Below are positions 41,870 through 42,703 of a DNA stretch of 64,000 bases, piece after piece. The stretch is from contig NZ_JAFMTR010000010.1 of assembly GCF_018682675.1 (NCBI RefSeq), forward strand, positions 62,001 through 126,000, given 5' to 3'. Below the pieces are notes generated by a model. That model saw nothing but the letters and a program-made list of their open reading frames with translations. It searched no databases and was not told the DNA's origin. The translations under genes were made by a program, and so were the position numbers. How positions within the stretch are numbered: the stretch's first letter is position 1; every line of letters starts with the position of its first letter. This DNA comes from Sphingopyxis soli (GTDB taxonomy: Bacteria; Pseudomonadota; Alphaproteobacteria; Sphingomonadales; Sphingomonadaceae).

Positions 41870-42703
41870 TCATGCCGCGATCTCCGCATAGCCTTCGCGT
41901 TCGAGCTCGAGCGCGAGTTCGGGGCCGCCCGATTTGACGATGCGCCCCGCCGCCAGCACATGCACGAAATCGGGCTGCACATAGTCGAGCAGGCGTTGAT
42001 AATGGGTGATCAGCAGCACCGCCTTGTCGGGGCGGCGCATGATCGCGTTGATCCCGTCGCCGACGACGCGCAGCGCGTCGATGTCGAGGCCGCTGTCGGT
42101 CTCGTCGAGGATCGCGAGCTTGGGGTCGAGGATGCCCATCTGGACCATCTCGTTGCGCTTCTTCTCGCCGCCCGAAAAGCCGACGTTCACGGGACGCTTG
42201 AGCATGTCCATGTCCATCTTGAGCAGCCCCGCCTTCTCGCGCGCCAGCTTCAGGAAATCGCCGCCCGACAGCGGCTCTTGCCCACGCGCCTTGCGCTGGG
42301 CGTTGAGGCTTTCGCGCAGGAACTGGACGTTCGACACGCCGGGGATTTCGACCGGATATTGGAAGCCGAGGAACAGGCCCGCCGCGGCGCGTTCGTGCGG
42401 GTCGAGGGCGAGGAGGTCGATGGCTTCCCCCTCATCGTCACCCCGGACTTGATCCGGGGTCCATTCCGTCGCCGCAGCCGTGGATGCCGGATCAAGTCCG
42501 GCATGACGAGGGGCGGTGAACATCACCGATCCTTCGGTGACCTCATAACCCGGCCGCCCGCCGAGCACATAGGACAGCGTCGACTTGCCCGCGCCGTTGG
42601 GACCCATGATCGCGTGAATCTCGCCCCTATTGATGCTGAGCGAAAGACCCTTCAGGATCGGCTTGTCGGCGACGGTGGCGTGGAGGTTTTCGATTTTGAG
42701 CAT
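41870..42703 (-). CDS. sufC: SufC ATPase with an in-frame repeat insertion
   Basis: A 277-residue ABC-type ATPase of the SufBC2D complex. Walker A is GPNGAGKST (residues 34-42), the Q-loop LGFQYPVEIPG, signature FSGGEKKRNE, Walker B LAILDETDSGLD and the H-loop LITHYQRLL. Normal SufC is about 248-250 residues; the excess comes from residues about 63-91, which read APRHAGLDPAS...PDQVRGDD and are a translated family C repeat placed between Walker A and the Q-loop. Otherwise the sequence is well conserved, suggesting an active protein. The ATG at 42703 overlaps the stop of the upstream small membrane protein gene by one base. Confidence 0.95.
   Translation of the reverse strand: MLKIENLHATVADKPILKGLSLSINRGEIHAIMGPNGAGKSTLSYVLGGRPGYEVTEGSVMFTAPRHAGLDPASTAAATEWTPDQVRGDDEGEAIDLLALDPHERAAAGLFLGFQYPVEIPGVSNVQFLRESLNAQRKARGQEPLSGGDFLKLAREKAGLLKMDMDMLKRPVNVGFSGGEKKRNEMVQMGILDPKLAILDETDSGLDIDALRVVGDGINAIMRRPDKAVLLITHYQRLLDYVQPDFVHVLAAGRIVKSGGPELALELEREGYAEIAA
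42436..42508 (-). repeat. Palindromic repeat family C, copy 2, inside sufC
   Basis: A 73-base element with the same two hairpins as copy 1 (CACCCCGGACTTGATCCGGG and GCCGGATCAAGTCCGGC) and the same CGTCA...TGACG ends, but a nine-base longer centre. It lies entirely within sufC and keeps the reading frame open. Confidence 0.95.

Follow-up and report, generated by a model that had tools for sequence, protein, structure and literature searches.

Unrelated palindromic repeats read in frame at one site of sufC in 16 genera, with signs of allele exchange between species

The sufC gene of Sphingopyxis soli carries a palindromic repeat dimer in frame, and the same site of the gene is occupied by unrelated palindromes across 16 genera; this recurrence is the new part of the present analysis. 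The reading that we regard as fairly probable is that a dimer of the CGTC-tagged REP type sits in frame at a tolerant hairpin tip and that the resulting alleles are exchanged between species. The dimer would lie at the tip of the beta-hairpin that follows Walker A, which may be a structurally permissive landing place, so that in-frame dimers could survive there. Once present, the inserted-loop alleles would spread and replace one another through short-tract homologous recombination between species; some of them would afterwards decay as palindromes and turn into constrained protein (the D/f alleles described below), and a few would shrink to a short scar, as possibly in Sphingopyxis granuli. 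Most likely, the insert has little or no effect on the activity of SufC.

The relevant features of the window, i.e., the whole stretch of 64,000 nucleotides that was analysed, are the following:

sufC, 41870..42703, minus strand: 277 residues, start at 42703; 329 bits against TIGR01978; carries the insert
Loop codons, 42419..42517, minus strand: 33 codons, residues 63-95, from loop lengths read in the loci (3 in insert-free relatives)
First arm in coding order, 42481..42508, minus strand: CGTC tag, 8-bp stem, 5-nt loop and CCA tail, from the sequence
Spacer, 42464..42480, no strand assigned: variable part, 17 nt, from arm versus spacer differences among 6 genomes
Second arm, 42436..42463, plus strand: inverted relative to the first, from the sequence
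Second copy of the sufC-type dimer, 41780..41843, no strand assigned: between sufC and sufD, without a long open reading frame, from the repeat listing

The original prediction held that SufC is about 28 residues longer than its family through a palindromic repeat read in frame, and that all its catalytic motifs remain intact; both points agree with what was found. In fact, 33 residues, TAPRHAGLDPASTAAATEWTPDQVRGDDEGEAI, replace 3, and the protein has 277 residues as against mostly 247-248 in insert-free Sphingopyxis SufC, in which the hairpin turn consists of three residues (DGQ and variants). The match to NCBIfam TIGR01978 (329 bits, cut-off 212.8) is aligned in two stretches and E. coli SufC (PDB) aligns with residues 1-63 and 94-273 of the window's protein, the break relative to these relatives falling at about residues 63-93, where the palindrome dimer codes for the extra residues with the frame left open. 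The protein has the ABC ATPase motifs and the fold of SufC, and residues of the two Walker motifs (A and B), the Q-loop, the signature and the H-loop are invariant across an alignment of 46 SufC sequences. Since the frame is open in a single-copy gene (one match per genome at E <= 1e-60 in the 75 matching genomes of 80 searched, the window's included), the loop is probably translated. In the AlphaFold model, residues 68-89 have a pLDDT below 50 and lie between strands 53-65 and 91-96; the insert is thus predicted to form a low-confidence extruded loop at the tip of a beta-hairpin, as had been expected of a surface region.

At the DNA level the insert is a 73-nt head-to-head palindrome dimer, with arms at 42436-42463 and 42481-42508. 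Both arms start with a CGTC tag, their stems are ATGCCGGA/TCCGGCAT and ACCCCGGA/TCCGGGGT, the loop is CTTGA and the tails are CCA. CGTC-tagged REPs, as set out in parts of PMC3733652, have a CGTC (or TGTC/CCTC) tag, a stem of 8-9 bp whose first two pairs are almost always A-T, a loop of 4-5 nt and a tail that is mostly CCA; they form head-to-head dimers, their hosts are mostly alphaproteobacteria and they have no dedicated transposase. Judged by its sequence, the sufC insert fits this class, with tag, stem, loop, CCA tail and many-copy head-to-head dimers alike, and deviates from the A-T rule at the second stem pair of its second arm.

The 3.63-Mb genome contains 101 copies of the 15-nt core of the palindrome, CCGGATCAAGTCCGG, with at most one mismatch (44 forward and 57 reverse), as against 0 copies of the reversed pattern in the same genome, and the match of the sufC palindrome to this genome-wide core is therefore not due to chance. 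Core doublets stand about 44 nt apart and the other dimers are mostly built as TCGTCA - core - TCCA - spacer - TGGA - core - TGACGA; the second dimer, whose cores are at 41787-41801 and 41822-41836, follows shortly after the end of sufC. REPINs, which are mobilised by RAYT, are paired inverted REPs that form a larger hairpin, occur in many copies and carry a GTAG tag. The dimers described here resemble them in the paired inverted repeats and in the many copies, but their tag is CGTC. The RAYT domain (PF01797, Y1_Tnp) gave 0 matches in the window's genome, as against matches in 5 of 14 control genomes, and RAYT was rejected on this ground as mover of the window's dimers.

A survey of this palindrome family, named B below, covered the loci at hand from the same genome, with the rest of its dimers and the other palindrome families outside it; among 24 distinct dimers, 22 of them testable, the sole one within a gene judged real was that of sufC. 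Same-family dimers are spanned by five open reading frames that extend 40 codons or more to either side. Two of these are sufC and its antisense; a transporter-like frame at L066, whose likely start lies downstream of the dimer, and two mutually overlapping frames on opposite strands at L314 were judged spurious by eye.

Within Sphingopyxis, 75 of the 80 genomes searched hold SufC at the cut-off, and the loop was read in 70 of them (G056, G068, G073, G074 and G075 being outside this count). It has at least 28 residues in 21 genomes, five of which are of the f type with decayed palindromes, 8-9 residues in two (G007, S. granuli, and G051) and three residues in 47, the latter providing the empty-site alleles expected of an insertion. 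An old SufC domain, conserved at the amino-acid level in all relatives, had been named as the outcome contrary to a recent element; it was rejected for the allele of the window, since most Sphingopyxis genomes read lack the insert and the palindromes that fill the site are unrelated.

Across the family, an insert-free SufC query matched 394 of 397 genomes, 13 of them Sphingopyxis. A low score flagged 82 genomes, of which 80 were searched again (the low-scoring G446 and G459 being outside the second search), and a split or late-starting match was obtained in 38 of the 80. The locus was read in 36 of these (all except G312 and G213), and all 36 have a palindrome of known pattern at the sufC position, in 15 genera other than Sphingopyxis; five further carrier records are L125, L130, L150, L171 (an isolate) and L193. 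The figure of at least 36 confirmed carriers among 381 non-Sphingopyxis genomes with SufC is a lower bound, as loops were read only in low-scoring family genomes and short loops are possible elsewhere. In a sample of 144 genomes of the class, 92 match SufC at E <= 1e-40, three of them in this family, and no split at the SufC loop was found, judging by match spans, in the 89 matching genomes outside it (the 52 genomes without a SufC match being uninformative).

The inserts were typed by nine patterns, A-I. Pattern I occurs only alongside D (L171 and L228), and L027, together with its duplicate record L117, matches C as well as D. Four of the inserts in Sphingopyxis (L021 and L023-L025) received no type and are tentatively placed with decayed D because the tail RGTGTTETL is common to them. 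Since B and F have the loop CTTGA or CCTGA in common, and C, D and I the loop GAAAG or GAAGG, the palindrome classes at the site would amount by eye to six (A, B/F, C/D/I, E, G and H), or cautiously to five, because A and H have short motifs in common. In genus g49 alone, the inserts of seven carriers fall into types A, B, C, D/I, E and G, six in all. As a separate observation, the sufC insert of L216 (genome G408) is a family E dimer in which one arm holds a second, nested palindrome.

When placed on an rpoB tree of 79 genomes and 1353 codons, in which the genera separate cleanly, the sufC insert state is scattered. Nine sister pairs differ in state at bootstrap 98-100, namely, with the first genome empty, G030/G000 (B, the window's genome), G016/G037 (D), G020/G042 (D), G046/G038 (D), G023/G066 (f) and G324/G423 (F), and, with an insert in both genomes, G071 (E)/G021 (f), G045 (B)/G031 (f) and G064 (B)/G062 (f). 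The minimum number of changes on the 79 tips, counted on a quick tree from the rpoB alignment, is 39 for family state and 26 for presence (22 and 16 within Sphingopyxis). A single clade for the seven family-B Sphingopyxis genomes is rejected with a p-AU of 7e-80, the group having been picked after the tree was seen; the SufC core tree, weakly resolved within Sphingopyxis, gives a hint only.

Between the window's genome, G000, and its sister G030, sufC shows 22 differences over the 120 nt nearest the insert (60 nt on either side) and 21 over the remaining 615 nt. The resulting ratio of 5.24 exceeds that of all 258 empty/empty control pairs (median 1.45, maximum 3.02), which are mutually non-independent and in which the insert-flanking region is itself somewhat more divergent, as the median indicates. 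Moreover, the flanks of G000 are closest to other carriers and the remainder of its sufC is closest to G030. As the differences between the two genomes are concentrated in a short tract beside the insert, the window's allele reads as an import: the insert probably arrived with a small piece of sufC from elsewhere and did not freshly transpose into this genome. The proposed insertion in frame stands, with the correction that a fresh event in this genome is improbable. Among the other eight pairs, G037/G016 (0.019) and G066/G023 (0.027) pass the 5% level of the controls at +-60 nt, neither of them at +-90 nt, and the remaining six show no tract signal against the empty/empty controls. The 96-nt insert of G057 is identical to that of G042, yet 77 of 735 nt differ in the rest of their sufC; the inserts of L208 and L229, which belong to different genera, are alike although the cores differ by 26.5%. 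We read this as import by short tracts, with good support in the window's allele and suggestive evidence in the others. As regards the flanks, no carrier retains the 3-residue turn immediately before DLL, DG is found a few residues off in carriers L171, L209, L213 and L219, and many inserts start with TP after a phenylalanine; such common flanks suggest one old insertion with swapped content, and count against the main reading.

The age of the alleles was approached through the differences among carriers. In family-B Sphingopyxis inserts the arms differ at 0-1 of 57 positions and the spacer region at 1-6 of 20 (15 pairs from six genomes; the six of 21 pairs with G078, whose arms have one change by eye, were excluded), and in these 15 pairs the third positions of the sufC core differ by 19-26%. 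The near-identical arms could instead mean constraint at the DNA level, which counts against the main reading. In the B insert, pS is 0.10 and pN 0.075 (3 of 7 carriers, of equal length), as against a core pS of 0.32 in all 7. The D/f tail RGTGTTETL has a pS of 0.47 and a pN of 0.00 (sufC core 0.32 and 0.03; nine genomes, eight distinct tails), with 0 nonsynonymous differences in 663 site-comparisons, and the decayed palindrome part of D/f has a pS of 0.51 and a pN of 0.19 (four equal-length rows). On these contrasts, the site holds young or homogenised alleles together with at least one older, constrained allele. The description of the insert as a recent element in the original prediction is therefore apt for some alleles, but not for the D/f group, in which the amino acids of one part of the loop are under constraint.

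The other suf genes of the window serve as a comparison for the site:

sufB, 43972..45459, minus strand: context; insertions of at least 15 residues in 0 of 77 loci
sufD, 41029..41775, minus strand: context; insertions of at least 15 residues in 0 of 65 loci
sufS, 39740..41032, minus strand: context; palindrome of another family read into the N-terminus, about 40886-41014; internal insertions in 0 of 75 loci

Among 80 loci, insertions of at least 15 residues are present in SufC in 11, all at residues 63-66. In the tested loci, no internal site of these four Suf proteins other than the hairpin tip holds insertions of this size, and tolerance alone fails to explain the use of this tip as against the loops of SufB, SufD and SufS. 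The N-terminus of SufS, before the DFPG motif, shows palindrome-like residues of differing families in several species (the window at about 40886-41014, L011, L019, L022, L025, L033, L035, L037, L154 and L155), palindromes that may be non-coding because translation may start downstream. Full-length RpoB matches are of near-uniform length within genera; genus g84 stands apart, with rpoB matches that exceed those of the other genera covered by about 72 codons in each of its eight genomes. As to the unit as a whole, PMC10746277 reports oxygen-specific fitness defects in Zymomonas when the suf transcription unit is knocked down.

Unrelated palindromes at one position, the lack of internal insertions in SufB, SufD and SufS, and the nested palindrome of L216 would also be expected if the sufC site were a preferred DNA target, into which palindrome families insert independently through their own or a common transposition mechanism. 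We consider such an active hotspot unlikely, given that the window's genome has no RAYT (PF01797) match, that its insert lies within an apparently imported tract and that target duplications, sought by eye only, were not seen. It likewise seems doubtful that the tip is a dedicated exchange site, where a specific mechanism installs and swaps unrelated palindromic cassettes and the species-variable surface loop is later domesticated, a last step suggested by the constraint on the D/f alleles.

A quite unlikely explanation is that the loop is itself functional, in partner binding, in tuning SufBC2D assembly or in escape from an antagonist, and that its variability is selected, with the palindromes as raw material. 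The turnover of state between sister species, the D/f tail (0 nonsynonymous differences in the 663 site-comparisons against its pS of 0.47) and the lack of such insertions in SufB, SufD and SufS are consistent with it, but the loop is of low confidence in the AlphaFold model and has no known partner, and most searched genomes seem loop-free, carriers amounting to at least 36 among the 381 non-Sphingopyxis genomes. That the hairpin works in the suf transcript, affecting its stability or the SufB:SufC:SufD ratio, with coding being incidental, is highly improbable: f-type alleles without a clear palindrome still keep the loop in frame and many species have no insert, although the low pS of the B insert (0.10 against the 0.32 of the core, as given above) and the further dimer directly after sufC point in that direction. 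Whether read, as we prefer, as tolerated dimers with exchange of alleles or otherwise, dozens of genomes have unrelated palindromes in one loop of one conserved protein, and palindromes inside proteins have hitherto mostly been described one gene at a time. Empty, young-looking, decayed, constrained and shortened versions coexist and form a natural series from mobile DNA to protein, which makes the sufC loop a clean system for weighing target choice, tolerance and selection in the survival of such elements.

REPs inside open reading frames, with many dimers or groups coding for 20-30 residues and with S. alaskensis among the hosts, are already described in parts of an earlier report (Di Nocera et al., 2013, PMC3733652). 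Since intragenic REP dimers are known, including in a Sphingopyxis, the basic fact of the sufC insert is not new, and the case that had been called striking in a free-living alphaproteobacterium has precedents. The parts considered of that report note a same-site case for recB of two Xanthomonas only, whereas sufC offers one site, 16 genera, unrelated palindromes and signs of allele exchange; no mention of sufC was found in the main-text parts examined, the supplementary intragenic list apart. A recurrent sufC insertion site was not found in the literature searched, where the 2013 supplementary list of intragenic REPs could still include sufC. Rickettsia palindromic elements (RPE) are, in parts of PMC10969869, palindromes in frame in protein genes, and RPE-4 and RPE-6 are given as CGTC repeats in parts of PMC3733652. 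As with RPE, the sufC palindrome appears to be inserted in frame in a functional protein gene (open frame, single-copy gene, intact motifs), a likeness by description; the host group here is, however, free-living, the examined family-B dimers are extragenic except that of sufC, and one protein site is used repeatedly. A fixed site of a Suf protein is also used by SufB inteins, which are spliced out; the sufC loop is far too short to splice and presumably stays.

A DUF559 (PF04480) nuclease gene is present in the window at 42930-43451, with arms at 42986-43022 and 43376-43412, the repeats coding for the ends of its open reading frame. DUF559 genes often lie between inverted palindromic repeats: among the loci examined (L108-L114 and L325-L351 as well as the window's), arms of at least 30 bits are found in 24 of 33 with usable flanks, including 6 of 7 in the window's genome, as against 3 of 300 random window segments. 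Many of these arms resemble, by eye, the family E palindromes of SufC and SufS, and the DUF559 gene might act as the autonomous partner for repeats of this kind; no paper linking DUF559 with an inverted repeat was found in the literature. The end of the window's DUF559 frame (LGINLEGSVR, 42929-42981) is a 72% copy of the sufB end (43971-44023), as if the element had landed there. Another multi-copy family of long inverted repeats is found in the window at 15134-15268, 50151-50285 and 63673-63860.
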